From Bacillota bacterium (GTDB lineage Bacteria > Bacillota > Sulfobacillia > Sulfobacillales > JAIMBI01), in NCBI GenBank assembly GCA_021846505.1, contig JAJZWV010000022.1, positions 1-47,736 of the forward strand: 47,736 bases of DNA, read 5' to 3'. The position numbers were made by a program, and so were the translations under genes. Under the pieces are notes generated by a model. It was not told where the DNA came from. It did no database searches and saw only the letters and a list, made by a program, of their open reading frames with translations. Numbering within the stretch: position 1 is the stretch's first letter; each line of letters starts with the position of its first letter. Below, in pieces: positions 9,952 to 36,958 of this stretch.

Positions 9952-10197
9952 CTAGGATCGGGCTGCCAGGACGCCGCCGAACACCGCCGGGGTAAACACC
10001 CCGCCGGCCATCACCACGCGCTCATCCACCAAAATCGTCGGATTGCCGCCATCCGACAGCGCGAGCCACCGCTCGCGGGCCTCCTCGTCCACGGTCACAT
10101 CGAAGTACGTGAACGGGTAGCCGTTTTGCGAAAGCCACGCTTTCGCTCCGATGCAGTCCCCTCAGGTAGGCGTCCCGTAAATCACAATGGATGGCAT
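9952..10197 (-). CDS. selenocysteine-containing glutaredoxin (UGA at codon 12)
   Basis: Read with TGA at 10164-10162 as selenocysteine, this is an 81-aa glutaredoxin/NrdH-like thiol oxidoreductase. It starts MPSIVIYGTPT, then the active site U12-G-D-C15 in place of the usual CPxC, then WLSQNGYPFTYFDVT, the cis-proline segment GGNPTILVDERVV, and a C-terminal helix. The start ATG at 10197 has GGAGGA at 6-base spacing, and the frame is open from the start to TAG at 9952 except for this TGA. A perfect hairpin begins 15 bases after the TGA. A tRNA-Sec gene lies in the same window. The alternative, a nonsense mutation of a TGC/TGT codon, would have to hit exactly the catalytic cysteine. Confidence 0.87.
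10128..10146 (-). promoter_or_regulatory. candidate bacterial SECIS hairpin
   Basis: On the coding (reverse) strand GCGAAAGC-GTG-GCTTTCGC forms a perfect 8-bp stem with a 3-base loop that starts with G. It begins 15 bases after the in-frame TGA, placing the apical loop 23 bases from it. That agrees with what I recall of the bacterial SECIS model: a stem-loop just after UGA with a G in the first loop positions, bound by SelB. It lies within the coding region, as bacterial SECIS elements do. Confidence 0.82.
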
Positions 10198-17958: not shown

Positions 17959-19225
17959 CTAGACCTCCGGATCGGGGGCGTCCAGGATCCGGTAGGCGTA
18001 GTTCACGGGGTGCGGCGCCGGCGGATTCAGCCTCACCACCAGCGTGATGGCAGCGACAGCGGCCAACGTGGCGGCCTGGGCCCACAGGGCGGCCAGCGGG
18101 CCGAAGTCCCCCATCGCCCAACTGCCCACCAGCAATCCGAGCGGGGCCGTCACGCCGCTCATGAGCAGGAGGAGGGCGCTCAGCACCCGACCAACCATGT
18201 GCGAAGGCGCGCTGCCCTGTATGGCCGAGACAAAAGGTATGCTCACCACGCCCGTGAGGAACCAGATGACGCCGTAGCACATGACCGCGACTGTCAGGTT
18301 TCGCGCCAGCAGCGCCAATCCCAAAGCGGCGTCCGAGCCCGCTGCCGCCGTGCGCACCCAGCCTTGCAACGTCAGCCGCGAGGACACCTTACCCACGAGG
18401 GCCCCTGCGGCGACACTTCCCAGCCCGCTGGCCGCCTCGATGGTGCCAAAGCCGGCAATCCCCGCGTGCAGCAGCAGGCGGCTGAAAACCAGCGAGAAAA
18501 TTGGGAACGGCCCGAACACCAGGTTCATCGGCGCGAGGACGAGAATGAGGCGGCGCAGGTACCGGTCGCCCCACAGGTCGCGCAGGCCAGCAGCGCTGTC
18601 TGTCAGCAGCCCCCGGGCCCCCCGGCTGGCCTTGGCCCGAACATCGGGAATCCGGAGCCAGCACAACACGCCGCCGCTGACTGCAAAGGTCACGGCGTCA
18701 ACAATCAAGGCCCAGCCGGGGGAAAGCCAGGCGATCAGCAAACCACCCACGGCATAGCTTCCAATGCTCAGCACACCCATGACCGCAGTCCATAAGCCGT
18801 TCGCCCGCGCAAGGTGTTTTGGAGGCACGACCCGGGGGATCACCGCCGTAACCGCTGGGGAAAACAGGAGGCCCTCCACGGCCAGCAGAAGCGTCACGCC
18901 GTACAGCACACCGGGATCGGGTCACCCGCGCGCAGGAGCACTCCGGCGGTGGCTACCAGAAGTGCACGGCCCCAATCGCTGATCACCATCACCAGCTTCT
19001 TGGGCCAGCGGTCCGCCAGGGCGCCAGCGGCAGCGCGAGAACAATAGGCGGCAGCGTAGTCAGCAGCGGCACCACTGCGGCCAAAAACACCGAGTGGGTG
19101 TCGCCAAGCACCGTCCACGCAGCTGCCAGCGCAAACAGCACATCGCCGACGCGGGAAACTGTCCGACTCGCCAGGAGTACCCCAAATCGGGGCGACTCGC
19201 ACAGCCACTGCCAGCTGGCGCTCAT
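17959..19225 (-). pseudogene. MFS transporter pseudogene (two frameshifts)
   Basis: Three overlapping reverse frames together make an MFS efflux protein of about 420 aa. The first piece, from ATG 19225, covers helix 1 (FGVLLASRTVSRVGDVLFALA) and is lost near 19030. A second frame carries the loop GALADRWPKKLVMVISDWGR to about 18915. The third runs from there to 17959 with the remaining helices. Both breaks disrupt conserved sequence, so the protein is not made unless sequencing errors are involved. The family resembles macrolide-efflux (MefA-like) MFS proteins. Confidence 0.8.
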
Positions 19226-19699: not shown

Positions 19700-19793
19700 T
19701 GGCGGGAGTATGTGGGAATCGAACCCACCGCCGACCGCCGGCCGGCCATCGGATTTGAAGTCCGTGGAAGGCACCAGTCCTCCATCTACCCCC
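19700..19793 (-). tRNA. selC: tRNA-Sec (anticodon UCA)
   Basis: A 94-base tRNA with selenocysteine-specific features. It has a long acceptor stem (GGGGGTAG with ATACTCCC, seven pairs plus one mismatch at the eighth), a D-stem GGAGG/CCTTCC, and an anticodon stem-loop CGGA-CTTCAAA-TCCG with anticodon TCA (complement of 19756-19758). A long variable arm (GCCGGCC/GGTCGGC, 7 bp) and a T-arm GTGGG-TTCGATT-CCCAC follow. The discriminator G and CCA are encoded. The anticodon loop is the same as in E. coli selC. It reads UGA as selenocysteine with SelB. Confidence 0.95.
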
Positions 19794-19806: not shown

Positions 19807-19836
19807 AGTATGACGTTTGGGCACCTCGCCTGTCAA
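19807..19836 (-). promoter_or_regulatory. tRNA-Sec promoter
   Basis: A consensus TTGACA -35 (reverse strand, 19836-19831) is followed after 18 bases by CATACT (19812-19807). The tRNA 5' end lies 13 bases further on. The tRNA therefore has its own promoter just after the cysteine synthase gene. Confidence 0.75.
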
Positions 19837-19864: not shown

Positions 19865-20836
19865 TCAAGGGCGGGGCACGTCCATCCCAAATGCCTCAGC
19901 AAACGGCGGCGTTGGTGGGTATAGCCCGGTGGACAGATACCGATCACCGCCATCGGGAAACATCACGACCACCGTGCGGCCGCGGCCGCCGGTCTCCTGC
20001 AGCACCTGGCGGGCGGCGGCGTAGGCCGCCCCCGAGGAGATGCCGGCCAACAGCCCTTCGTGCTGAGCCAGCCAGCGGGTGGTGTCCCAGGCGTCGCTAT
20101 CGGCAACGGCCACCACCCGGTCAATGACCGAGCGGTCCAAAATGGCGGGGATAAACCCGGCCCCAATCCCTTGAATGTTGTGCGGTCCGGGTGGGCCGCC
20201 GGACAGCACCGCCGAGGCGGCGGGCTCCACCGCCACCATCTCGATGGTGCGCCGGTGACTTTTGAGATAGCGCCCCAGGCCCGTGACTGTGCCGCCGGTG
20301 CCCACGCCCGCCACCACCAGGTCCACGCGCCCTTCCGTGGCTGCCCAAATTTCTGGCCCGGTGGTGCGCTCGTGCACCCGGGGATTGGCCGGGTTCTCGT
20401 GCTGGCGGGTCATGTAGGCGGTCGGCAGCGCGGCCTCAATGGCTTTGGCCCAGGCCACCGCCCCCGCCGTGCGCTCGGCCCGCGGACTTTCCACCACGGT
20501 GGCGCCATAAGCCGAAAACAGCTGCCGCCGCTCGATGCTTTGGCCCTCTGGCATCACCAGCACCAGCCGGTAGCCGCGCGCCGCGGCCAGCATCGCCAGC
20601 GCGATGCCGGTGTTCCCGGACGTGGCTTCCACCAGCACGCTGCCGGGGTGAATGGCGCCGCGGTCCTCGGCGTCCTGGATCAGGGCCCACGCCGTCCGGT
20701 CCTTGACCGATCCGCCTGGGTTTTGCCGCTCCAGCTTGGCCCACACCTGGGCTCCCGTCTCTTCCGACAGCGCACGGAGCGGCACCAGGGGGGTGTTGCC
20801 CACCAAGCCCAGCACCGCGCCTCCTGGCTCCTCCAT
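19865..20836 (-). CDS. cysK: cysteine synthase (O-acetylserine sulfhydrylase)
   Basis: A 323-aa fold-type II PLP enzyme that makes cysteine from O-acetylserine and sulfide. The PLP lysine is Lys45 in PGGSVKDRTA. The substrate/phosphate loops EATSGNTGIALA (from about 69) and GTGGTVTGLGRYLK (about 175), and the C-terminal GISSGAAYAAA, are all present. The length is normal. The start ATG at 20836 follows GGGGGGA. CysM or cystathionine beta-synthase-like activity cannot be excluded. It lies upstream of tRNA-Sec on the same strand, but the tRNA has its own promoter. Confidence 0.9.
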   Translation of the reverse strand: MEEPGGAVLGLVGNTPLVPLRALSEETGAQVWAKLERQNPGGSVKDRTAWALIQDAEDRGAIHPGSVLVEATSGNTGIALAMLAAARGYRLVLVMPEGQSIERRQLFSAYGATVVESPRAERTAGAVAWAKAIEAALPTAYMTRQHENPANPRVHERTTGPEIWAATEGRVDLVVAGVGTGGTVTGLGRYLKSHRRTIEMVAVEPAASAVLSGGPPGPHNIQGIGAGFIPAILDRSVIDRVVAVADSDAWDTTRWLAQHEGLLAGISSGAAYAAARQVLQETGGRGRTVVVMFPDGGDRYLSTGLYPPTPPFAEAFGMDVPRP

Positions 20837-22053: not shown

Positions 22054-22740
22054 ATGACGAAGCATTGGCCTTTGCGGCTCGACTACTTGGCCCCAGGGGA
22101 CCTCGCGGAGCATGCGCTTGCCCTGCCGCAGCTGCTAGCGTCGCGCTCCGGCCAGCCCGTCGTCGTGCCGCTGGACGAATTCCAAGACGTGATGGGGAGC
22201 GGGGGCGCCGCTGGTGAAGCGCATGCGGTCGCTTTGACAGCGCCAGCCGGATACCGCTTGCCTCTTCATTGGAAGCCGGGGCGGCCTCATGCGCTCCCCG
22301 TTCGGCCTCACCGCCCAAGCCTTCTCCCGATTTGCCGACGTCCCGGCTCTGCCAGACATTCCCTGAGGTCGGCGGCCACTCCAATAACACCATGAAAGTT
22401 TGCCAAGTGCTGTGCGACGTGGCGGGGGACCACGGTGTCCGCCGCATCGGCCGCGCCGCGGCTCAAACTGGTCTGGCGCGAGCGACCGAAGAGTTGGCGC
22501 CGCTCTTCGAAAGCGGGCTCCGCGGCTTGGATGCCCTTCCTCACACCCGGAAGCTCCTGCTGCGGCTGGCGCGGGGAGAAACCGCCTATCCGCCCGGCGC
22601 CAATCCGATCCAACTGAAGGGCGCGCTGGACGAGCTCATGGCCAACGGCCTCATTCGGCGTGTGATCCGAGGCCAGTACGTGCTTCACGAGCGCCTATTT
22701 CAGCAGTATCTCGCCGGTCAGTGGGCCCCCGCCTACCGGC
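22054..22740 (+). pseudogene. decayed AAA (archaeal-type) ATPase
   Basis: Pieces in different forward frames match the order of an archaeal-type ATPase (PF01637-like). They are a lead-in with LAEHALALPQLLASRSGQP, the Walker B strand PVVVPLDEFQDVM near 22160-22195, a sensor region (ACLFIGSRGGLMRS) in another frame with a TGA inside, the GGHSNN... turn near 22370, and a C-terminal winged-helix part (KLLLRLARGETAYPPGANP to LHERLFQQYLAGQW) ending near 22735. The P-loop half is missing. Frameshifts and a truncated start make it a pseudogene. Confidence 0.6.
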
Positions 22741-23467
22741 GGGGCTCGGCCGCGCGCTCCGCATGCGCGGCCCACTCCCAGTCGTCGGCCAGCGGCTCGA
22801 GGCGCTCGTCCCCCGTCCGCCGCATCTGGGCTTTAGCCAAGAGCCAGTCGGCCAAGTGAGGGTTTTTCGGCAGCAGCGACCCATGCAGATACGTCCCCAC
22901 GGCATGGCCGGCTACGGCGCCTTCGGTCCCATCGCGGCCATTGTTGCCGACTCCCACCCGAACACGGGCCAGCGGGTCCTGGCCCGGCTGCAGCACCGTT
23001 TCCCCCGCATGGTTCTCAAACCCCACCAGCGTGGGCGGATCCAAGGGCAGCGCCGCGGTCGCAACCACGTTGCCCACGTGCCGGCCGCGCGGCCCGGCTC
23101 GCGTGATGGCGTCAAACCACCCGATGCCTGGCATCACGCGCCCATCCTGCGCCTGGTATTCTCGGCCCAGCAGTTGGAAGCCGCCGCACACCGCCAGCAG
23201 CGGCAGCCCGTCCGCCAGCGCGGCCGTCATTTCGCGGGCGCGCCCCGACAAATCTTCGGCGATCCAGGCCTGGTGGCGGTCCTCGCCGCCGCCGATGAAG
23301 GCCAGATCGGCATCGCCCCAAGCCACGGTGTCCCCGGGCTCGACTTCCACCACCGAGGCGTCCCAGCCGCGCCACTGGGCGCGGCGCACCAGGGCCAGCA
23401 CGTTGCCGCGATCTCCGTACAAGTTCATGTCGCGCGGATACAGGTGAACGATCTGGAGTCGGCGCAT
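22733..23467 (-). CDS. gatD: GatD-like glutamine amidotransferase
   Basis: A 244-aa class-I CobB/CobQ-type glutaminase. The nucleophile is Cys94 in LLAVCGGFQLLG and the catalytic histidine His195 in GTYLHGSLL. The N-terminus (QIVHLYPRDMNLYGDRGNV) is characteristic of GatD, which supplies ammonia to MurT for amidating the D-Glu of lipid II in Gram-positive bacteria. The start is ATG 23467, after AAGGGGG; a longer open frame upstream lacks a ribosome site. No murT gene is adjacent, which is unusual because the pair is normally an operon. Confidence 0.85.
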   Translation of the reverse strand: MRRLQIVHLYPRDMNLYGDRGNVLALVRRAQWRGWDASVVEVEPGDTVAWGDADLAFIGGGEDRHQAWIAEDLSGRAREMTAALADGLPLLAVCGGFQLLGREYQAQDGRVMPGIGWFDAITRAGPRGRHVGNVVATAALPLDPPTLVGFENHAGETVLQPGQDPLARVRVGVGNNGRDGTEGAVAGHAVGTYLHGSLLPKNPHLADWLLAKAQMRRTGDERLEPLADDWEWAAHAERAAEPRR

Positions 23468-23668
23468 GCGCGGCCCCCTTGCCCTTTCTGCCCATTGTGT
23501 CACAAGTGGGGCGGCGCTCCCTAATGCGGGGCGGGAGCACGCCGGAGCAGTGGGCGGCCAGTGGCCGCGCGCCGGCTGCAACTGTCGACACACGCTTGAC
23601 CTCCTGGCAGCCCTGCGCCACCATGAGGGTGCACAATTTGTCGGATCTTTGGCGGGGCGGGGGGATCC

Positions 23669-24238
23669 ATGCAGCAATACTGGGTGCCGTTCTGGGACAT
23701 TGTCAGGATCCGCGAGATCGAGATATTGAGCCGGCGGCGGCTGCATCATTTGACGCGCGGAGCGTATGAAGTGTCGGAAGTGCTGCCCTGCCGCCTGGAC
23801 CAGGTTGTCACCACCACCGTGTGCTGGTGCGGCACGCGGCCCATATTAATTCTGTCCACCGCGGATGTGCGCATCGACTATCGCAAGTTTGTGCAGTGGT
23901 TCGGCTACGAAGTGCGGCCCGCCACCTCCACCGAGGTGTCGTCCCTAACCTCCGCCCACCTGCAGGGGGTGCCGCCCACTGGCCTCCCCTACATGATGCC
24001 GGTGTTTTTGGATGATGTCCTGCTCGAATCGGATTCGCTGTGGATTCCTGCCGGCGATCCCTCCATCTGGGTGCGGGTGGTGCCCACCGAAGTGGTGAAA
24101 GTGTCAGGGGCCTTTCCCGTTTCGATCCGCCTGGCTCCTCCTGCCCGCGACGAGCGCTACAGCTACTATGCCGTCAGTCGGCTGAACACCGAAGGTGTGC
24201 TGGAGCCCGATCCCGTGCCGCTGTCAGGAACCGACTAA
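23669..24238 (+). CDS. YbaK/ProX-type aminoacyl-tRNA deacylase domain protein
   Basis: A 189-aa protein with the YbaK fold. Seen are RPILILSTADVRIDYRKFVQ (about residues 57-76), EVSSLTSAHLQGVPPTGLPY with the conserved GVPP loop near 100, and a C-terminal LWIPAGDPSIWVRVVPTEVV. These proteins hydrolyse mischarged tRNAs such as Ala-tRNA(Pro) or Cys-tRNA(Pro). About 45 residues precede the domain and are not recognised. The start ATG 23669 follows GGGGGG. Its 3' end overlaps the convergent menH gene by 65 bases. Confidence 0.8.
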   Translation: MQQYWVPFWDIVRIREIEILSRRRLHHLTRGAYEVSEVLPCRLDQVVTTTVCWCGTRPILILSTADVRIDYRKFVQWFGYEVRPATSTEVSSLTSAHLQGVPPTGLPYMMPVFLDDVLLESDSLWIPAGDPSIWVRVVPTEVVKVSGAFPVSIRLAPPARDERYSYYAVSRLNTEGVLEPDPVPLSGTD

Positions 24239-25043
24239 CCAGCCGCGAAAGCTCTGCGGGCGCCTCCAAGGGCACGCGGTGCCCCACCCCCTCCAGCACC
24301 GCCAGCTCCGCATCGGGGATGAGTCCCGCGGCTCGCCGCGCCAGGGCGGCGTACTTGACATCCACCGCGCCCGCCACCACCAGCGTGGGGATGGGCCAGT
24401 GGGGCAGCAGCGGCCAGGTGTCCGGCTGCTGGCCGCCGCCAGCCCAGCGCAGGCTGGCCGCAAGGCCCGCCGCACGCTGGCGGCGCCGATCGTGCGCCAG
24501 GCGCCGCTGCTGCGCGTCTGTGAGCGGACGCCCGCTGGCCAGCACGGGGTTTTCGTCCCATCGCTCCATGAAGGCCGACAGACCCCGGGCCTCAATTTGG
24601 TCGGCAAGCCGCGCATCCGCTGCACGCCGGGCGCTCCGCTCATCCTCGGCCGCAATGCCCGGCGAGGCACTCACCAGCACCAGCGCCGCCACCCGCTCCG
24701 GCGCCGCCGCGGCCATTCGGAGCGCGACGCGCCCCCCCAGCGAGTAGCCCACCAGCGCCAGGGGCCCCGGAGCCACCGCCGCGGCCAGGGCCAGCACGTC
24801 TCTCGCTGTGCCATCGGGTGTGAGGTGGGCCCGGTCCCGCGGGATGCCCGACTGCCCATGCCCATAAAGGTCGGGAAGCACCACCCGCCAGCTCCGCCGG
24901 AGTGCCCCCGCCAATGAGAGCCATGTCGCGTGGGTGCCCAAAAATCCGTGCAGCATCACGACGGGCGGAGCACCTGCGGCGCCCAGCTCGCGATGCCAGA
25001 GCGCATCCAGCGGCTCCACCCCTGGCGCCTCAAACCGCGCCAC
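24174..25043 (-). CDS. menH: SHCHC synthase (menaquinone), alpha/beta hydrolase
   Basis: A 289-aa alpha/beta hydrolase with the oxyanion segment LHGFLGTHATW (31-41), nucleophile Ser101 in VGYSLGGR and the catalytic histidine in EGVGHRVPLEAP. MenH releases pyruvate from the MenD product to form SHCHC. Its place directly after menD, with the GTG start at 25043 overlapping the menD end by 14 bases, supports this over a generic hydrolase. It is the last gene of the men operon. The C-terminal tail runs over the end of the convergent YbaK gene. Confidence 0.88.
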   Translation of the reverse strand: MARFEAPGVEPLDALWHRELGAAGAPPVVMLHGFLGTHATWLSLAGALRRSWRVVLPDLYGHGQSGIPRDRAHLTPDGTARDVLALAAAVAPGPLALVGYSLGGRVALRMAAAAPERVAALVLVSASPGIAAEDERSARRAADARLADQIEARGLSAFMERWDENPVLASGRPLTDAQQRRLAHDRRRQRAAGLAASLRWAGGGQQPDTWPLLPHWPIPTLVVAGAVDVKYAALARRAAGLIPDAELAVLEGVGHRVPLEAPAELSRLVSRFLTAARDRAPAHLRCSAD

Positions 25044-26736
25044 GCCACACCACCCGAGCTACCTGCTCACAGAGCCACGCCTCAGTGGAGGCCTGCCACG
25101 CGGCATAGGCCGCACGGGGTGCCGTGTGCCAATCCACCACCGAGAGTCCGGGCTCGCGCGCCTCCACGGCCAGCACCGCAGCCGCGTGCCGCCACGTGCT
25201 GGCCTCGCAGTAGCGGCCGCCGTAGAGCGCCGCGATGCCGGCCAAGTCCAGGCCGTGAGGCGTGCCGAACAAGCGCTCAAACTGCTGCGGCGGCAGCGAC
25301 GCTTGGGAGAGCGTGTTGAAAATCCCCCCGCCATCGTTGTTCACCACCAGCACGGTGGCACTCAGCCCGTACGGAGCCACCGGCAGCCAGCCATTGGCGT
25401 CATGAAGAAACGACAGGTCTCCCACCACCAGCACCAGCCGCTGCGCGCGCCCCGCCGCGATGCCCAAGCCGGTAGACGCCACCCCGTCAATGCCGCTCAC
25501 ACCGCGATTGCCATACACCCCAAACCGGTCGGAGCCCCAGAAAAATTTATCCAGGTCCCGCACCGGCAGGCTGTTGCCCACCATCACGACGGCATCGTCC
25601 GGCACCACGGCCGCAAGCTCGTGGGCCCAGCGGCTGGAGAGGCTTGGAGGCGCCGCCGCCAGCCGCTGGGCCAGCAGGCGCTGGGCGGCTTCGTCCGCTT
25701 TCCGCCACTCTGCCACCCACGCGCTGCCGCGTCGAGCGTCGGCCAGCTCCGGCCGAACCTCGCGGTCCCACTGGCCCAGATCGGCCGAAAACCAGGCCGC
25801 CGCCGACCCCGCGGGATCCCGCCACCGGCCCGGGTGATCCACCACCCCCGTCGGCACGCGGGCCATGAGCTGTCCGGCGGCCTTAGAGGTGGGGATGGGC
25901 CCCACCCGCAAAATTCTATGAGGGCGCCAGGCATCCGGCAGGGACCGAGCCAGCCAGTCATAGGTGGCGATAGCGGGGATGCGGCCGCGCAGGTTGGAGA
26001 GCGGATCCGCCCACACCGGCCACTGCCACTGGTCAGCCAGCCACCGGATTGCGGCGGCCGCACCCGACAAATCTTCCGCCCCGGCCACAATGACGCCCTG
26101 GGCCTCGTCGCGCCCGAAATCCGCCAGCGCCTCCCAATCCGTTACCAGGATGGACTGGTGAACCGCCGCAGCGGGCGGCACGGCGCCCTCGTCGGGCCAC
26201 GTGGGCAGCAGCGGCTCGCGCAGCGGCACGTTGACCTGCACCGGGCCCGCCGGCGCAGCCGCAGCGGCCGCGGCCGCTCGCACGCCGGCCATCACCCAAT
26301 GGGCCCCCGGCACAGCCAGGTCCGGGACCGGCAAGTCCCAGCTGGCCTTCACCGCCGGGCCGAACACGTTCACCTGGTCCACCGTCTGCGAGGCGCCCAC
26401 CTGCCGCAGCTCCGGGGGCCGGTCGGCCGACAGCACCACCAGCGCGCCGCCGCCGTGCGAAGCTTCCATCACGGCGGGCAGCAGATTAGCCACCGCCGTG
26501 CCCGACGTGGTCAGAATCGCCGCTGGCCGCCGCTGGCCGCGCGCCAGACCCAGCGCGAAGTAGCCTGCGGAACGCTCGTCCAGGTGAACCCACACGCGAA
26601 TCGCGGGGTGGCGGTCGAGGGCCAGCGCCAGTGGCGTCGAGCGCGACCCGGGGCACACCACCGCCTCGCGCAGGCCGGCGGCCGCCAGGCCAGCTGCCAG
26701 CCCTGCAGCGGCCATCCCCAGCGCGTCCTCCCTCAT
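25030..26736 (-). CDS. menD: SEPHCHC synthase
   Basis: A 568-aa thiamine-diphosphate enzyme joining 2-oxoglutarate to isochorismate. Seen are the N-terminal VVCPGSRSTPLALAL, the TPP glutamate in HLDERSAGYFALGLA, ILTTSGTAVANLLPA, and the C-terminal TPP motif GDLSFLHDANGW to NNDGGGIFNTL. The start ATG at 26736 overlaps the stop of menF (ATGA). The length is normal for the family. Confidence 0.95.
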   Translation of the reverse strand: MREDALGMAAAGLAAGLAAAGLREAVVCPGSRSTPLALALDRHPAIRVWVHLDERSAGYFALGLARGQRRPAAILTTSGTAVANLLPAVMEASHGGGALVVLSADRPPELRQVGASQTVDQVNVFGPAVKASWDLPVPDLAVPGAHWVMAGVRAAAAAAAAPAGPVQVNVPLREPLLPTWPDEGAVPPAAAVHQSILVTDWEALADFGRDEAQGVIVAGAEDLSGAAAAIRWLADQWQWPVWADPLSNLRGRIPAIATYDWLARSLPDAWRPHRILRVGPIPTSKAAGQLMARVPTGVVDHPGRWRDPAGSAAAWFSADLGQWDREVRPELADARRGSAWVAEWRKADEAAQRLLAQRLAAAPPSLSSRWAHELAAVVPDDAVVMVGNSLPVRDLDKFFWGSDRFGVYGNRGVSGIDGVASTGLGIAAGRAQRLVLVVGDLSFLHDANGWLPVAPYGLSATVLVVNNDGGGIFNTLSQASLPPQQFERLFGTPHGLDLAGIAALYGGRYCEASTWRHAAAVLAVEAREPGLSVVDWHTAPRAAYAAWQASTEAWLCEQVARVVWRGAV

Positions 26737-28127
26737 AGCGCGCGGCCTGCGGCCGCCGGTGCCATCCCAGCCAAGGCCCACGCCATCACGCCCAGCTTGT
26801 CGCTGGATTCGTCCAGCTCGCGGTCCGGATCGGACCCGCGCACCAGCCCACAGCCGGCGTAGAGCCGAGCTTGTCGCCCGCGAATCCAGGCTGACCGCAG
26901 ACCTACGTAGTACGCCCCACCCGCACCACTGCCGGCTCCGCCGCCAAGCGGGGCCAGCCCCACCGGGCCCGCGTACCAGCCCCGCGGTGTGGCTTCAAGC
27001 CGCCGCTGCCACGCGCGCGCGGCCTCTGGGGGCTCGCCTCCCACGGCGGGAGTGGGGTGGAGCGCCGCCACCACCTCGTCGAGGCTGCACTCCGGCCGCA
27101 GTGTTCCTTCCATGGGGGTGATCAAGTGGTTCAGGGGGCCCGCCGCGCGGACAGCCGTCGCCTGCACCGCCACGTTATCCACAAGCGGCGCCAGGCGCCT
27201 CACAATAGTGTCCACCACGACACGATGCTCTCGCCGGTCCTTCTCAGACGCCGCCAGCTGGCTCATGCCGCGCTCGCGCCGCTCGGTGCCGGCCACCGCC
27301 TGGGTGTACACCTGGCGGCCCGACACTTTGACCAGCGTCTCGGGGCTGGCCCCCAAAAACACGCCCGCGCCCTGGCGAATGACGAAGGCGCAGGCGTCCA
27401 CATCCCGGGTCAGAGCCGCCCACACATCATCCAGGGCCGGTGGCGCGGCAAATGCCAAGTCCACGGCACGGGCCAGCACCACCTTGGCCACGCGCCCCCG
27501 GTCCAGCGCCCGCACCACGGCGGCCACCTCGTCCCGCCACCGCTCCGGCTTCGGCACAAAGCGCGCGGCCAACAGGCAGGCGCCTTGCGGCGGCTGCGGC
27601 GGCGCGGGCACCAAGGCCGCCAGCCGCGCCGCGAGGGCGGCCACCGAATCGTGGGGGCTCACCCGCGCTGCCAGCTGCCACCAGCCGAATCCATCCGGCT
27701 CGCGGCGCAGAGTCAGCTCGGGCAGCACCAAGCTCGCGTCGGGAAAGCCCCGCCAGGACCGACCCGCTTCGAAGGCCGCTCCGCCGCCCACCCACAAATC
27801 TGGCGGCAGCTGTGCATGGCTGCCCTGCGCCACCAGCGCCGCTGTAGCCGCCGAGAGCGCCCGAGTCCCCTCGGTGCGCGCGGCCAAAGCCTCGCCCCAT
27901 CCCAGCGTCAGCCGTCCGTCCGGCTCTCGAAAGGCCCACGCCAGCCGGGGGCTCGCCACGGACCACCGGGCGTCCCGGAGCGGGCCCGTGGCCTCCGCAC
28001 GGGCACACACCCACACCGCTTCGCGGCGGCGTGCCGCCTCGCGCGCAGCGTCCTCCACCATTTGGCCCACCCACACGCGCACGTCGTCCAGCGTGCCCAC
28101 TTGGCCCAGCGCCAGCAATCGGCTCAT
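26733..28127 (-). CDS. menF: isochorismate synthase
   Basis: A 464-aa chorismate-binding enzyme converting chorismate to isochorismate. Conserved C-terminal-domain blocks are present: RVAKVVLARAVDLAF, PETLVKVSGRQVYTQAVAGTERR, KDRREHRVVVD, LHPTPAVGG, and ACGLVRGSDPDRELDE-like YAGCGLVRGSDPDRELDESS. The start ATG 28127 has GGAGGGAGG upstream. It sits between menA and menD in the operon. The N-terminal 170 residues are variable, as usual. Confidence 0.93.
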   Translation of the reverse strand: MSRLLALGQVGTLDDVRVWVGQMVEDAAREAARRREAVWVCARAEATGPLRDARWSVASPRLAWAFREPDGRLTLGWGEALAARTEGTRALSAATAALVAQGSHAQLPPDLWVGGGAAFEAGRSWRGFPDASLVLPELTLRREPDGFGWWQLAARVSPHDSVAALAARLAALVPAPPQPPQGACLLAARFVPKPERWRDEVAAVVRALDRGRVAKVVLARAVDLAFAAPPALDDVWAALTRDVDACAFVIRQGAGVFLGASPETLVKVSGRQVYTQAVAGTERRERGMSQLAASEKDRREHRVVVDTIVRRLAPLVDNVAVQATAVRAAGPLNHLITPMEGTLRPECSLDEVVAALHPTPAVGGEPPEAARAWQRRLEATPRGWYAGPVGLAPLGGGAGSGAGGAYYVGLRSAWIRGRQARLYAGCGLVRGSDPDRELDESSDKLGVMAWALAGMAPAAAGRAL

Positions 28128-28167
28128 GGGCCGCGCCTCCCTCCTGGGGGTCCCAGCTGTCTTTGGG

Positions 28168-29049
28168 TCACCGGATCCACAGGCCCACCGCCAATCCCAG
28201 CGACAGCAGCAAGCCCGACCACAGGTGAATCCGCCCCACCACCAGCACGCCGCGCGACAGGGCGCCGGGCTGTCTCAGCCGCTGGAGGCGGCTCCACGCC
28301 CATGGCAGCAGCAGTGCGGGCAAGCCCGCGGTCATTGGCAGCAGCGAAGACGCTCCAAGCACCAAGGGCAGTGCGAGCCCCACCAGCACCAGCCCCTCCA
28401 GCGCCGCCAGCCCCACGTGCGGCTCCAGCTGGACCGCCAGGGTCCGGCGCCCCCGCGCTTGGTCTGGCGCGCGGTCGCGCAGGTTGTTGGCCATCAGGAT
28501 GGCGGCCACGGTGCACCCCACCGCCAGCGACGCCCAGAGGCCCACGGCGGTCACGCGCCCCACCGCCGCCAGCTGGGACGCCATCACTTCAATGGGACCC
28601 ATAATGAGAAAGACAACCAGCTCGCCCAGCGGGGTGCTCGACAGGGGCCGCGGGCCCGCATTGTACAGCCCGGCCGCGGCGGCCCCCAAGAGGCCCAGCG
28701 CCAAAAGCCAGGGCCCGCGCACCGCCACCAGCACCAGGCCCAGCAGCAACGCCGCCAAAAACGTAGCGGCAGCCCATCGGCGGATGAGGCCCGCGCTCAT
28801 GTGGCCCATCACCAAATATCCGGCGATGCCGACCGAGTCTGTCCCGTCAACGCCGCGGCGAAAGTCGGCATACTCGTTAGCCATGTTGGTGCCGATCTGC
28901 AGCAGCAGCGCCACCACCAGCATAACGGCGGCCAAGGGCCAGCTCACCGGCGCGGCCAGCGCGCCGGCGGCCACGCCCACCGCCACCGGCGCTACCGAAG
29001 CCGGCAGCGTGGGCGGCCGCGCCAGCACCCACCACTCGCGCCCGGTCAT
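28168..29049 (-). CDS. menA: 1,4-dihydroxy-2-naphthoate polyprenyltransferase
   Basis: A 293-aa integral membrane prenyltransferase of the UbiA superfamily with about eight or nine helices. The Mg/diphosphate-binding motif is NMANEYADFRRGVDG (about residues 54-68), and the second acidic motif is NNLRDRAPDQARGRRTLAV. It attaches the polyprenyl chain to DHNA in the membrane. The ATG at 29049 overlaps the menE stop (ATGA). Confidence 0.93.
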   Translation of the reverse strand: MTGREWWVLARPPTLPASVAPVAVGVAAGALAAPVSWPLAAVMLVVALLLQIGTNMANEYADFRRGVDGTDSVGIAGYLVMGHMSAGLIRRWAAATFLAALLLGLVLVAVRGPWLLALGLLGAAAAGLYNAGPRPLSSTPLGELVVFLIMGPIEVMASQLAAVGRVTAVGLWASLAVGCTVAAILMANNLRDRAPDQARGRRTLAVQLEPHVGLAALEGLVLVGLALPLVLGASSLLPMTAGLPALLLPWAWSRLQRLRQPGALSRGVLVVGRIHLWSGLLLSLGLAVGLWIR

Positions 29050-30548
29050 GGAGCGGCCCCCGACTCCACTAAGGCGCGCACCGCCTGCCGCGACACTTTG
29101 CCGCTGGCCGTCAGCGGGAGCGCCGCCACCAGCACCCAGCGGCGGGGCACTTTGTACCGCGCCAGATGCTGGGCAGCAAACTGGGCCAGCCCTTCCGGGG
29201 TGGGCCTGGCCCCCGCTGCGGGCACCACCACCCCGACGGCCGACTGGCCCCACTCGGGGTCGGACACCCCCACCACCGCCACCGCCCCCACCTCGGGATG
29301 GCTGGCCATCACCCGCTCAACCTCCGCCGGGTACACGTTTTCACCCCCGCTGACAATCAAGTCTGTCCGCCGGTCCACGACCACCAAGCGGCCCTGGGGG
29401 TCCAGGCGCCCCATGTCGCCGGTGAAAAACCAGTCGCCGGGGCGGCGCGGGTCCTCATCCCAGTAGCCCCGAAAGACCTGCGGGCCTCGCACCGCGATTT
29501 CGCCTATGCCGTCAGGCCCGGGCTGGGCAATGCGCACGTCCACCCCAATGAGCGGGGTGCCGCTGGTGTCCAGGCCATCCGGGGCTTGCCCGACTTCCAG
29601 CGTGGCCGCCTGGGAGGCGGTTTCGGTCATGCCAAAGGTGGATCGCACCGGAAGCCCCTGCGCATGAGCTTGGCGGAGAAGATCCGGGTCGGCGCGGCCG
29701 CCGCCAATCAGCACGGCGCGGAGGGATGCCGAAAACCGATGCGGCGCCGGCGCGGCTTCCAGCACGCGCTGCAGCATGGTCGGCACCAGCGAGGCGAGCG
29801 TGACCGACCCGTTCGTCAGGTGCGCGGCCACACGGCGAGCGTCGAACCGAGGCAGGGCCACCACCCGCGTGCCTGCCCAGATGGCGCGCAGCACAATGGC
29901 CTGGCCGCCCACATGAAACAGGGGCAGGGTCAGGAGCCACGCGTCGCGGAGGTCGTGGCCCAGTGCCCACTCCGAGCCGCGGGCGGCCCAGGCATGCTGG
30001 CTCAGGGTCAGCACGGCCCCCTTGGCGCGCCCGCTGGTGCCGGAGGTGTAAATCAGGCACTGCGGGCTGTCGCCGGCCGGCACATAACCCGCCGCCCTTG
30101 GCGCGGCCTGGGCCAGGGCGTCGTGGGAGGGGTCATCCGCTGGGACCCAGAGCCGCTCGCATCCCGGCGGGACGTTGGCGTCCGGACGCGCCACCACCAG
30201 CCGAGGCCGCGCGCTATCCAGCCGCTCCTGCAATTCGCAGCGCGTGAGCTCCGCGTTCAGCGGCACCAGAATGGCCCCCAGGCGCACGGCGGCAAACAGC
30301 AGCTCGACGTGCTGGTACTCGGCCGGCAGCAGGCTCGCCACGCGATCCCCCGGCCTCACTCCTCGCTCCATTAGGGTGCCCACCACCCGGTCGACGCGGG
30401 CATCCAGCTCCCCGGCCGTCCACACAACAGCATCCGAGCGCCAATATTCGCGCTCGGGGTGGAGGGCGGCCCGGCGGGCTAGCCAGTCCCACGACCCGGC
30501 GCGGCCCCGCTCGGCAAGGGCTGCTGGCGCCATCGCCATCGTCGCCAC
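29046..30548 (-). CDS. menE: o-succinylbenzoate-CoA ligase
   Basis: A protein of about 500 aa of the acyl-adenylate superfamily. The P-loop-like A3 motif is CLIYTSGTSGRAKGAVLT, then STFGMTETASQA, the A8 hinge GDMGRLDPQGRLVVVDRRTD and the A10 lysine in LPLTASGKVSR. It activates o-succinylbenzoate to its CoA ester. The first possible start is GTG 30548, right after the menB stop; ATG 30539 and 30533 in an ATGGCG repeat are alternatives without a clear ribosome site. Translation is probably coupled to menB. Confidence 0.9.
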   Translation of the reverse strand: MATMAMAPAALAERGRAGSWDWLARRAALHPEREYWRSDAVVWTAGELDARVDRVVGTLMERGVRPGDRVASLLPAEYQHVELLFAAVRLGAILVPLNAELTRCELQERLDSARPRLVVARPDANVPPGCERLWVPADDPSHDALAQAAPRAAGYVPAGDSPQCLIYTSGTSGRAKGAVLTLSQHAWAARGSEWALGHDLRDAWLLTLPLFHVGGQAIVLRAIWAGTRVVALPRFDARRVAAHLTNGSVTLASLVPTMLQRVLEAAPAPHRFSASLRAVLIGGGRADPDLLRQAHAQGLPVRSTFGMTETASQAATLEVGQAPDGLDTSGTPLIGVDVRIAQPGPDGIGEIAVRGPQVFRGYWDEDPRRPGDWFFTGDMGRLDPQGRLVVVDRRTDLIVSGGENVYPAEVERVMASHPEVGAVAVVGVSDPEWGQSAVGVVVPAAGARPTPEGLAQFAAQHLARYKVPRRWVLVAALPLTASGKVSRQAVRALVESGAAP

Positions 30549-31370
30549 TTACGGCAGGCGCCCAAACCGCGTGAAGTCTGGGGTCCGCTTCTCCCGATAG
30601 GCATTGCGGCCTTCCTGGGCTTCCTCGGTCATGTAGTACAGCATGGTCATATCGCCCGCCATCTGCTGCAAACCCACGAGGCCGTCATCTGCGGCGTTGA
30701 AGGCGGCTTTTAAGAACCGAAGCGCCATGGGACTTTTCTGCAGCATTTCGCTGCACCACTTCAGTGTCTCGGCTTCAAGCTCCGCGAGCGGCACCACCGT
30801 GTTCACCAGGCCCATCTGGAACGCCTCCTGGGCGGAGTACTGGCGGCAGAGATACCACACTTCGCGCGCTCGCTTCCACCCGATGGTGCGCGCCAGCAGG
30901 CTGGCGCCAAACCCACCGTCAAAACTGCCGACTTTCGGCCCGGTCTGGCCAAACACGGCGTTGTCTGCCGCAATGGTCAAGTCGCAGACAAGGTGCAACA
31001 CATGGCCCCCGCCAATGGCGTAGCCCGCCACCATCGCCACCACCGGCTTCGGCAGCTGGCGAATCTGGCGCTGCAGCTCGAGCACATTGAGGCGAGGCAC
31101 GCCCTCGTCATCCACATAGCCGGCATCGCCGCGAACGCGCTGGTCGCCGCCCGAGCAAAACGCCAGCGGGCCCTCGCCCGTGAGGATGGCCACCCCGATG
31201 GAGGGGTCTTCGCCCACCTGCCGAAACGCCTCCTGCATCTCAAACAGCGTCTTGGGCCGAAAGGCGTTGCGGACCTCCGGCCGATTGATCGTGATTTTGG
31301 CCACCGCGCCCGCGCGCTCAAATTTGATGTCCCCGTACGACTGGCCCGGCCGAAACACTTCCCACTCCAT
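30549..31370 (-). CDS. menB: 1,4-dihydroxy-2-naphthoyl-CoA synthase
   Basis: A 273-aa crotonase-fold enzyme closing the naphthalene ring. Very typical blocks are [61 protein letters not shown] and [15 protein letters not shown]. The start ATG 31370 has AGGAGGTGTGCGG before it. It is the first gene of the men operon (menB-E-A-F-D-H), preceded by a promoter with twin palindromic operators. Confidence 0.96.
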
Positions 31371-31446
31371 CCGCACACCTCCTAGATTCGCTGGCGCCTG
31401 CCGCCTGCCCATGAACCACACCCGGGCGCCCGTGAAGGAACCTCCC

Positions 31447-31477
31447 ATGAACCGCGGTTCAATGAACCATGGTTCAT
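31447..31477. promoter_or_regulatory. twin palindromic operator upstream of men operon
   Basis: Two adjacent palindromes, TGAACCGCGGTTCA (31448-31461) and ATGAACCATGGTTCAT (31462-31477), share the half-site TGAACC and differ only in the two central bases. A third half-site, ATGAACC, occurs at 31411-31417. They cover the predicted start point and leader of the menB promoter. Such spacing suits a dimeric repressor, for example of the TetR or GntR type. The regulator is not identified. Confidence 0.75.
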
Positions 31478-31504
31478 TTTCACGCCAGAAGACACCTCCG
31501 TCAA
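31476..31504 (-). promoter_or_regulatory. men operon promoter
   Basis: TTGACG (-35, reverse strand 31504-31499) and GAAAAT (-10, 31481-31476) are 17 bases apart. The -10 box touches the first palindromic operator, so repressor binding would block transcription of menBEAFDH. Confidence 0.55.
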
Positions 31505-31532
31505 CCGCCGGCCGCGAGTCGGCGAAGCCGCC

Positions 31533-31547
31533 TATAATAGGGAGAGG
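31533..31547 (+). promoter_or_regulatory. TATAAT -10 and ribosome site of AbiEii-like gene
   Basis: A perfect TATAAT (31533-31538) is followed at once by GGAGAGG (31541-31547) and the ATG at 31555. The -35 region is poor. The distance implies a very short leader, with transcription starting inside or next to the ribosome site. Confidence 0.6.
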
Positions 31548-31554
31548 TGATGTG

Positions 31555-32232
31555 ATGCAGGAGGATGTGCTGCCGGCCGGGACTGCCGCCGTGGCGTCCG
31601 TGCTGGGCGAGTGGCCGACCATGGAGCAATTTTACCTGGCCGGCGGCACGGCCCTCGCGCTCCACCTGGGCCATCGCCAATCCCGCGACCTGGATTTTTT
31701 CACACGCTGTCCCGCCGACCGGCTGCCGGACCTCGGGGGGATGGACCCGCTGCTGGCTCGGTTTGCCCAAGTCGAGTGGGACCTCCGCACGGCAGACCAA
31801 ATTCAATGGCGCCTGGACGGCGTATCCGTCACCTTGCTGGCCTACCCGTTCCCGCATCGGCATCGCTACCACCACTGGCGGGGCTTGGCGGTGGCTGACG
31901 CCCGGGATCTCGCCATCCAGAAGGCATATGCCATAGGGCGCCGGGCGCAAGCGCGCGACTACCTAGACCTGCACGCCCTGCTGGCTGGCGGCTGGATCGC
32001 CCTGGACGATTTGCTGCCCTGGGCCCGCGACACGTACGGCGATGCGTTTTCTCCGCGCTTGTTTCTCCAGCAGCTCACGTACACCCGGGATATTCCGGAT
32101 GCCGACAGCGCCCTGGCCCTGTTGGTCCAAGAGCGCTCCTTTGAATCGGTGGCGGAGGACCTGGCGCGAGCCGTGCAAGCGTGGGGCCGGCGGCACTGGG
32201 GGCCTTCGTCCCCCGCACGGGGGCGCTCGTAA
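31555..32232 (+). CDS. AbiEii/AbiGii-like nucleotidyltransferase toxin
   Basis: A 225-aa protein of the nucleotidyltransferase AbiEii family. The nucleotide-binding G-loop and acid pair are seen as [15 protein letters not shown] (27-41) followed by SRDLDFFTR with Asp45 and Asp47. The later lysine/aspartate motif is [20 protein letters not shown]. Relatives transfer nucleotides to tRNA ends or block translation as the toxin of AbiE-type systems. The start is ATG 31555 (GTG 31552 is also possible). The stop overlaps the next gene's start (TAATG), so the two form an operon. Confidence 0.8.
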
Positions 32233-34329: not shown

Positions 34330-35283
34330 GTGGATGTGGCGGATCGCACCCAGGAGTTTCTGGCACGCCTCGACAGCGGCCATAAGATTGAAGCGGAGGA
34401 CTGGATGCCCGACGCCTACCGGGCGGAGCTCATCCGCCTGATTCGGCTGCACGGCATCAGCGAAATCATGGGCACGCTGCCGGAAAAGGAGTGGGTGCCG
34501 CGGGCCCCCACCCTCTACCGCAAGCTGGCGCTCATGGCCAAGGTGCAGGACGAAGCCGGCCACGGCCAAATCCTGATACGCGTAGCGGAGGACCTCATGG
34601 CGCCGCTGCACCAAAACCGCGAGGACATCATGGCTGATCTGTTCGCCGGCCGGCAGAAGTTCCACAACGTGTTCCACATGCCGGTGCCCACCTGGGCCGA
34701 CGCTGGCCTCATCGGCTGGCTGGTGGACGGCGCCGCCATCATCACGCAGGGCATGCTGCTGTCGGGATCCTACGCCCCCTACACCCGGGCGCTGCGGCGC
34801 ATTGTGGAGGAAGAGGGGTTTCACATTCAGCACGGCGAAAGCATCTGCATGGCCCTAGCCGAAGGGACGCCTCGACAGCGCGCGATGTTTCAGGACGCGC
34901 TGACGCGCTGGTGGCCCTCGCTGATGATGTTTTTTGGCCCCCCGGAGCGCTCAGCCCCTGGGGGCGCCGGCGCGGGCTCCCATCAGAGGGCCAACCTGCG
35001 GTTTCGGATTCGCAGCAAAACCAACGAAGAGCTGCGCCAGCGCTATCTGACCAAGTATGTGCCGCGCATTCGGGCGCTGGGCTTTTCCATCCCGGATGCC
35101 ACCCTGGCCCAAGATCCTGACACCGGCGCCTGGACGTATCAGCCGCCGGACTGGGATCTGTGGCGGCGCATTATTGGCAACGGCGGCCCCCGATCGGCGG
35201 ACCGCCTCGAGCTGCGGCGCATGTCGTACGTGGAGGGCCAGTGGGTGCGCGATCTTTTGTCCTCCACGCGAAAGGCGGTGTAG
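34330..35283 (+). CDS. paaA: 1,2-phenylacetyl-CoA epoxidase catalytic subunit
   Basis: A 317-aa diiron oxygenase subunit that epoxidises the ring of phenylacetyl-CoA. The two carboxylate-histidine iron motifs are KVQDEAGHGQ (DEAGH at 74-78) and RIVEEEGFHIQHG (EEGFH at 161-165). The length fits the family. The start is GTG 34330 after GGGGAGGAGGG. It is the first gene of paaABCD. The insertion SAPGGAGAGSHQ near 210 varies in the family. Confidence 0.95.
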   Translation: MDVADRTQEFLARLDSGHKIEAEDWMPDAYRAELIRLIRLHGISEIMGTLPEKEWVPRAPTLYRKLALMAKVQDEAGHGQILIRVAEDLMAPLHQNREDIMADLFAGRQKFHNVFHMPVPTWADAGLIGWLVDGAAIITQGMLLSGSYAPYTRALRRIVEEEGFHIQHGESICMALAEGTPRQRAMFQDALTRWWPSLMMFFGPPERSAPGGAGAGSHQRANLRFRIRSKTNEELRQRYLTKYVPRIRALGFSIPDATLAQDPDTGAWTYQPPDWDLWRRIIGNGGPRSADRLELRRMSYVEGQWVRDLLSSTRKAV

Positions 35284-35284
35284 C

Positions 35285-35650
35285 ATGACCAACCCCGGCC
35301 AATCGGGCGAGACGGTTCCCCACCAGGATTTCGGAGTGTACGAGGTGTTTGCCCAAACCCAGCCGCTGGGCGCGATGGAGTGGCAGGCGAGTCTCATGGC
35401 GGGCTCGCCCCAGATGGCACTCTCCCTCGCCCAGCAAAACTTCCTGCGGCGCCGCCAGATTTACGGCCTCTGGGTCGTGCCGCGAGACGCCATCGCCAAA
35501 GCCCCGACCGATCCCACCGACCCCAGCCACGCGGCCGACGCCCTGTTCCGCCTGCCGAAGGGGTATCGGGAGCTGTCCGACTACCACTACTTGGTGAGCA
35601 AGTGGCGCCAGTACCAGCAGCAGGCGATGACACCCGACACCATGGCCTAG
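35285..35650 (+). CDS. paaB: 1,2-phenylacetyl-CoA epoxidase subunit PaaB
   Basis: A 121-aa structural subunit bridging PaaAC dimers. Typical segments are YEVFAQTQPLGAMEWQASLMAGSPQMAL (about residues 19-46), FLRRRQIYGLWVVPRDAI, and LSDYHYLVSKWRQYQ. The ATG at 35285 comes one base after the paaA stop. The C-terminal part, with RLPKGYRELSDYHY, is slightly longer than in Proteobacterial PaaB. Confidence 0.9.
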   Translation: MTNPGQSGETVPHQDFGVYEVFAQTQPLGAMEWQASLMAGSPQMALSLAQQNFLRRRQIYGLWVVPRDAIAKAPTDPTDPSHAADALFRLPKGYRELSDYHYLVSKWRQYQQQAMTPDTMA

Positions 35651-35684
35651 CCAAGCCTGCACGACCAGCACGAGGAGGTGTCTC

Positions 35685-36473
35685 ATGGACGAGAAGCGCT
35701 GGCGGCCCGCACTGGGGGAGCTGCTGGCCCAGCTGGCCGATGATGACTTGGTCACAGCATTTCGCGCCAGCGAGTGGCTGGGATTGGCCCCGCACCTGGA
35801 AGAAGACGTCGCGTGGTCTTCGATTGCCCAAGATGAGATGGGCCATGCCGCCATGTACTTCAGCCTGCTGGAGCAGCTGGGATTTGGCAGCGCCGACGAC
35901 TTGGCGCACCTGCGCGGCCCCGCCGACCGGCGCAACAGCGTGCTGCTGGAGCGCCCCAACGGCCCCGGCACGTATCTCGACCAGCCGCGGTTCGACTGGG
36001 CGTATGCGCTGGCGCGCCAATACCTGTACGACACGCTGGAGGCGCTGCGACTGGACGGCCTGGTGGAATCCTCTTACCAGCCGCTGGCGGAGCTCGCTGC
36101 CAAGATCCGGCGCGAGGAGCGCTACCACGCCCTGCATCACGCCACGTGGCTGGAGGAAGTGGCCCAGGCGGGGGGCGAAGCCTCGGAGCGCCTCCGGCAC
36201 GCGTTTGTGCGTGCCGCCGCCGATGCCGGCGACTTGGCGTACACCTCCGGCTGGGCCCGAGAGTGGGAGGAGTCGGGGCTCTGGCCCGATGCGTCGGAGC
36301 TTCCCGCTGCCTGGGCGCACCAGGTCGAGCGGGAGTTGTCCCACTGGGGGCTGGTGCTGCCCCCGGTTGCCTCGGTCCACAACGGCCGGGCGGGGGAGCA
36401 CTCTCCCGATCTGGCCTCCGTGATTGCGCAGCTGAGCGACGTGTACCGCACTGACCCGGTGGCCTCGTGGTGA
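35685..36473 (+). CDS. paaC: 1,2-phenylacetyl-CoA epoxidase subunit PaaC
   Basis: A 262-aa ferritin-like partner of PaaA. The helical bundle has SSIAQDEMGHAAMYFSLLEQ (about residues 45-64) and KIRREERYHALHHATW near 145-160, the usual PaaC signatures. The ATG at 35685 follows AGGAGGTGTCTC. It stabilises the catalytic subunit and takes part in substrate binding. It overlaps the start of paaD. Confidence 0.93.
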   Translation: MDEKRWRPALGELLAQLADDDLVTAFRASEWLGLAPHLEEDVAWSSIAQDEMGHAAMYFSLLEQLGFGSADDLAHLRGPADRRNSVLLERPNGPGTYLDQPRFDWAYALARQYLYDTLEALRLDGLVESSYQPLAELAAKIRREERYHALHHATWLEEVAQAGGEASERLRHAFVRAAADAGDLAYTSGWAREWEESGLWPDASELPAAWAHQVERELSHWGLVLPPVASVHNGRAGEHSPDLASVIAQLSDVYRTDPVASW

Positions 36474-36958
36474 CGGAGCCGGCTGTCCGGCCGGACCAGG
36501 TGCTCCACGCACTGGGCCAAGTCATGGACCCGGAAATGCCCGCCGTCAGCATTGCCGACTTGGGCATGGTCCATGCCGTTCGCATTGAGGGGGCCGCCGT
36601 CCGGGTCACCCTGCTGCCCACCTTTGTGGGATGCCCCGCCTTGGAGTTGATTCGCCAGCGAGCGGTCCATCAGATTCAGCAGGCGGCCGGCACACCGATT
36701 GAGGTCGACGTGGAGTTTTCCACCGCCGTGCCGTGGACATCTGGCCGCATCGCACCCGAGTGCCACGGTGCACTCCGCACGCGCGGCATCGCCCCACCCA
36801 GCCTCACGCCACCGGCCCGCGGAGCGGAGCCCATCCCCTGTCCCTGGTGCGGATCCTTGGGCACGCGGCTGGAAAGCTGGTTTGGCCCCACCGCCTGCCG
36901 TGCCATTTACTACTGCCGCGCATGCCGCAATCCGTTCGAAGCCATAAAGTTTGCGTGA
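36467..36958 (+). CDS. paaD: phenylacetyl-CoA epoxidase accessory protein PaaD
   Basis: A 163-aa protein with an N-terminal MIP18/DUF59 domain (VLHALGQVMDPEMPAVSIADLG) and a C-terminal zinc-ribbon-like part with CPWCGSLGT and YYCRACRNPFEAIK. PaaD helps assemble the metal centres of the epoxidase. The start GTG 36467 (or GTG 36470) lies inside the end of paaC. The operon ends here: no paaE reductase or paaG/H/K genes follow. Confidence 0.92.
   Translation: MVTEPAVRPDQVLHALGQVMDPEMPAVSIADLGMVHAVRIEGAAVRVTLLPTFVGCPALELIRQRAVHQIQQAAGTPIEVDVEFSTAVPWTSGRIAPECHGALRTRGIAPPSLTPPARGAEPIPCPWCGSLGTRLESWFGPTACRAIYYCRACRNPFEAIKFA

Follow-up and report, generated by a model that had tools for sequence, protein, structure and literature searches.

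The window, a draft-assembly contig of 47,736 bases, carries a selC gene for tRNA-Sec(UCA) at 19700-19793 on the minus strand that, on comparison with its relatives, is an ordinary, intact and almost certainly working gene of a known type. It lies directly behind the cysteine synthase gene cysK, a neighbourhood that is conserved across the order. We consider it highly likely that the gene is transcribed from its own promoter and serves selenocysteine (Sec) decoding together with SelA, SelB and SelD, and that its place behind cysK reflects an old gene order. Sequence supports this explanation through the tRNA itself, the presence of selA, selB and selD, the placing of UGA codons at catalytic positions, and the conservation of the promoter; we infer the steps of charging, conversion and decoding from established knowledge. 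The source genome is a draft of 3.58 Mb in 119 contigs, estimated at 96% completeness, of which the window is one contig. Features are listed in Table 1.

Table 1. Features of the window, and UGA-containing glutaredoxin-like frames on two other contigs of the same genome
Feature	Coordinates	Strand	Evidence or description
selC, tRNA-Sec(UCA), 94 nt, encoded CCA	19700..19793	-	ARAGORN; Rfam RF01852; identity in genus; covariation
cysK, cysteine synthase A (O-acetylserine sulfhydrylase)	19865..20836	-	TIGR01139, 402 bits (cut-off 351 bits); PF00291
Glutamine-amidotransferase-like ORF (GATase)	22733..23749	-	Named from sequence alone; conserved part from about residue 97
Predicted selC promoter	19807..19836	-	-35 TTGACA 19836-19831; 18-nt spacer; -10 CATACT 19812-19807
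Uxx-star / glutaredoxin-like selenoprotein gene (candidate)	9952..10197	-	81 codons; in-frame TGA 10164-10162; motif TPTUGDC
SECIS-like hairpin	10128..10146	-	15 nt after UGA; 8-bp stem; 3-nt loop
Glutaredoxin-like UGA frame (L127)	C61:3293-3445		UGA at first active-site position, PGUGxC
Glutaredoxin-like UGA frame (L128)	C31:21070-21234		UGA at first active-site position, PGUGxC

The window encodes one tRNA, a tRNA-Sec

The first-pass annotation of this DNA had called a selenocysteine tRNA with anticodon UCA, and ARAGORN placed a tRNA-Sec with anticodon TCA, the sole tRNA of the window, at the same location, exact to the base. The Rfam tRNA-Sec model RF01852 matched positions 19704-19793 with 67.8 bits (E = 7.9e-12), covering all 91 model positions, where the gathering cut-off is 47 bits. 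Across the genome, only this locus exceeded the cut-off. The long variable arm and encoded CCA that had been described are both there: the variable stem has 6-7 bp and the 3' end reads GCCA, that is, discriminator G73 followed by CCA. The T stem has 5 bp and the anticodon loop 7 bases. The claim of an extended acceptor stem stands with respect to length, with eight positions and hence the 8/5 lengths of the 13-layer acceptor/T domain of bacterial tRNA-Sec, but not with respect to pairing: positions 1-7 form the only standard pairs, and the eighth is a G8-A66 mismatch.

When the window's selC was folded as a single sequence, the cloverleaf was not the minimum-energy fold (z = -1.2), and we therefore relied on comparative evidence for the structure. 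In an alignment of 23 sequences, 95.7% of the cells at cloverleaf pairs were paired, with the variable stem paired in 100%, and changes on both sides were observed at 11 of 30 pairs. Double-changed cells numbered 44, as compared with 11.4 in shuffled alignments and at most 6 when the structure was slid along the sequences. Moreover, the tRNA is identical at 94/94 positions across four species of the genus (that of the window and three others); between the same species, cysK is only 91-92% identical and the sequences of the cysK-selC gap are largely different.

We observed G8-A66 as the eighth acceptor layer in 35 of 37 genes compared, including that of the window, and in 26 of 30 high-scoring selC loci sampled from the phylum. 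Judged from these genes, the mismatch is the normal state of tRNA-Sec in the phylum. E. coli tRNA-Sec has the pairs C7-G66, G49-U65 and C50-G64, which mark it for SelB and against EF-Tu (PMC9976931). At these three positions the window's selC has G-A, G-C and U-A. Because G8-A66 and the other substitutions stand there, the E. coli marker pairs are not conserved in the lineage, and by its sequence the window's tRNA must be discriminated between SelB and EF-Tu by features other than these pairs. Compared with bacterial tRNA-Sec as described by RF01852, the gene shares the UCA anticodon, the lengths of the 8/5 layout, the long variable arm, G73, the encoded CCA and a full-model score; it differs in having G-A at the eighth acceptor position, which is a standard pair in the known system.

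Sec-like tRNAs that insert cysteine or serine, namely selC*-type tRNA-Cys and allo-tRNAs, exist in Bacillota (PMC7609411), and several genomes of the order carry a tRNA-Sec-like tRNA-Cys(GCA) besides selC, such that a look-alike identity has to be weighed for the window's gene. We judge this identity to be extremely improbable. The overall Sec-like shape is common to all of these tRNAs; however, selC* has U73, anticodon GCA (or UCA), and an 8/4 form with a bulged A in a 4-bp T stem, and allo-tRNAs have a 12-bp acceptor domain in an 8/4 or 9/3 form, whereas the window's gene combines G73 and UCA with eight acceptor positions and a 5-bp T stem, scores 67.8 bits against RF01852, and resides in a genome with a full set of selA, selB and selD. 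No selC* was found in that genome; of its lower RF01852 matches, those inspected proved to be tRNA-Ser, tRNA-Arg and tRNA-Gly. Weaker second RF01852 matches in relatives had raised the suspicion of selC* or allo-tRNA genes; the ones inspected were tRNA-Cys(GCA) or tRNA-Ser, all from genomes other than that of the window.

As a separate observation, nine genomes (G007, G009, G013, G019, G023, G025, G028, G034 and G035; loci L090 and L094-L101) contain a tRNA-Sec-like tRNA-Cys with anticodon GCA and a long variable arm that resembles published selC*. G019 has this tRNA without a detected selC, and the other eight genomes have selC besides.

Sec machinery and UGA-containing genes

We searched the genome for one gene family at a time. 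The genes selA, selB and selD, for which a search of the genome had been advised and whose absence would have spoken against the call, are all present and each scores above its curated cut-off: selA on contig C46 (508 bits, cut-off 268), selB on contig C87 (320 bits over the GTPase part, cut-off 242, plus a weak C-terminal match), and selD on contig C27 (354 bits, cut-off 125), the last with one internal TGA. With selC, these genes occupy four different contigs. The in-frame UGA of selD lies within SKSGUGCKLG, at the site where SelD carries Sec or Cys. The gene for the formate dehydrogenase alpha subunit, fdhA, has an in-frame UGA in NRTUHAPSV, where Sec is known to occur in this family. The match begins only at model position 51, and for this reason it scores 626 bits, slightly below the curated cut-off of 666. 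The genome also contains at least three Uxx-type glutaredoxin-like candidates with UGA at the active-site position, one in the window and one each on contigs C61 and C31. To the extent that sequence can establish it, UGA is read as selenocysteine in this genome, and the view of the first-pass annotation that recoding is credible here is borne out by a Sec-type SelD, a Sec-type FdhA and three UGA-containing glutaredoxin-like genes.

The annotation had also mentioned a candidate selenoprotein in the same window, without coordinates. We take it to be an NF041212-related frame about 9.5 kb from selC, the only UGA frame of the window found with a family match. Its predicted product begins MPSIVIYGTPTUGDC, and a 57-aa piece of it matches NCBIfam NF041212 with E = 7.5e-10, under the curated cut-off of the family. 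The UGA is kept in five relatives, comprising three sister species and two genomes from a second genus within the family, and the SECIS-like hairpin that follows it shows two compensatory pairs among six species. UXX-star selenoprotein families have already been catalogued (PMC13188914).

An intact-looking selC could in principle be a relic that no longer takes part in decoding. We found no specific support for this reading, and the complete machinery, the several genes with UGA at conserved active sites, and the perfect identity of the tRNA across the genus leave it a negligible likelihood.

In one relative (G004; loci L109 and L130), UGA-containing glutaredoxin-like genes and SelB are present, but neither selA nor selC nor an orthologous cysK turned up in its assembly, which is 97% complete. 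These absences are most likely assembly gaps.

Gene order around selC in the order

The cysteine synthase gene that had been named as the neighbour of selC is cysK, the gene immediately 5' of selC; both are on the minus strand, with 71 nt between them. We searched for cysK beside selC in relatives using tblastn. The same adjacency and orientation were found in 25 of the 29 genomes in the order that have selC (6/6 in the window's family, 19/22 in a large sister family and 0/1 in a third family), with gaps that are often 12-54 nt; these genomes are related, and the counts are not of independent events. Outside the order, the adjacency was found in 0/9 genomes from the rest of the class and 0/30 loci from the phylum. 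Consistent with the claim that cysK stands here in place of more common company, selA, selB or selD lies no more than 1.5 kb from selC in 14 of the 30 loci sampled from the phylum, and cysK in none. The cysK genes of the two families are only ~60% identical, indicating that the arrangement is old.

Conservation extends to the other side of cysK, where a GATase-like gene is conserved in the order, forming a GATase-cysK-selC block; in some genomes a gene with a tRNA-editing domain is also found upstream of cysK. No such conservation is seen downstream of selC. As in genomes where selC lies beside selA, selB or selD or is nested in selB (PMC8124441), a single selC would serve SelA, SelB and SelD; by contrast, the conserved neighbour in this order is cysK, and in the window's genome the sel genes are dispersed over contigs. 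Among the papers searched we found none on cysK-selC linkage, which does not prove that there is none, and we regard the order-wide linkage as a small new detail on a known kind of gene.

Other genes of the window were noted. An MFS transporter gene at 17959-19208 on the minus strand is split between frames 17959-18909 and 18894-19208, which overlap in a way that suggests a frameshift. A menaquinone-synthesis-like cluster (MenD, isochorismate synthase, MenA, an AMP-binding enzyme and a MenB-like protein) occupies 25030-31622 on the minus strand, and a cluster of this type also adjoins cysK-selC in sister genomes. Phenylacetate catabolism is represented by PaaA, PaaC and PaaD-like genes at 34330-36958 on the plus strand.

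The predicted selC promoter and the linkage to cysK

The near-consensus promoter that the first-pass annotation had assigned to selC was recovered as TTGACA-18-CATACT, with a score of 10/12; it ends 13 nt before the 5' end of the tRNA, and shuffled sequences yielded 0.1 such sites. The three sister species keep both hexamers and the spacer length upstream of selC, within intergenic sequence that otherwise differs largely. In the order as a whole, TTGACA-17/18-TATNAT is the usual form; a site of this form, or with CATACT as its -10, ends 10-17 nt before the tRNA in nearly all members. For the whole set, the mean best score was 10.0/12, as compared with 5.4 in shuffles. In the three sister species, a gene of MFS type or its remnant (named by eye from the translation) separates cysK from selC, with gaps of 491, 1342 and 1725 nt, and the promoter stays with selC. 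We considered the MFS gene of the window as the counterpart of this insert and rejected it, there being no match between them at E 1e-6. These comparisons suggest that selC very probably has its own promoter, and additional co-transcription with cysK is possible. In four genomes with gaps of 12-14 nt (G005, G006, G014 and G032), both promoter hexamers lie inside the cysK reading frame, and in several others the -35 does so.

The persistence of the pair raises the question of whether cysK and selC form a functional unit, with CysK acting in selenium or Sec metabolism or with read-through co-regulation keeping the two together. The frequent same-strand adjacency at short distances in the order, its absence from the other class and phylum loci, and the location of the selC promoter partly or wholly within the cysK frame in many genomes are consistent with a unit. 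However, a separate strong selC promoter is predicted in nearly every case, the sister species tolerate inserts of 0.5-1.7 kb between the two genes, and the GATase-cysK pair is equally conserved. That pair is intact in G016, G022 and G028, where selC sits elsewhere, and it persists in G018 and G026, which lack selC and in which neither selA nor selB reaches the cut-off (for G026, the absence of selC rests on the stricter selC search only). We therefore consider a functional unit unlikely. The retention of GATase-cysK without Sec genes in G018 and G026 weakens the case for cysK as a member of the Sec pathway, indicating that it is probably a neighbour of selC and not a pathway component. From these genome comparisons, the GATase-cysK-selC order is best read as old inheritance and not as a shared pathway. 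A more specific possibility, that the order-wide layout, in which some genomes have the selC promoter inside the 3' end of cysK, couples cysteine synthesis to the supply of Sec-tRNA, for example through an effect of cysK transcription on the selC start, seems to us very unlikely.

Discussion

Under the preferred reading, in which selC is an own-promoter gene for Sec decoding that has inherited its position behind cysK, transcription would probably begin a few bases before the tRNA, at a promoter of the sigma-70 type. SerRS would charge the tRNA with serine, and SelA would convert the product to Sec-tRNA-Sec using selenophosphate from SelD, which would itself be a selenoprotein. SelB would then deliver Sec-tRNA-Sec at UGA codons that have a SECIS hairpin downstream; the decoded codons would lie in fdhA, in selD and in at least three genes of glutaredoxin-like proteins, one of them in the window.

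Beyond what the first-pass annotation had described, our analysis adds the conservation of the cysK-selC neighbourhood across the order, the G-A state of the eighth acceptor pair, and the embedding of the promoter within cysK in some relatives. The first of these adds the position behind cysK, documented here over an order, to the gene neighbourhoods of selC. The second is normal for tRNA-Sec in the phylum, so that the rules of SelB/EF-Tu discrimination established in E. coli cannot be carried over directly to these bacteria. In this genome, and also for the small glutaredoxin-like gene of the window, the presence of selC and the accompanying machinery makes the reading of UGA as selenocysteine well founded.
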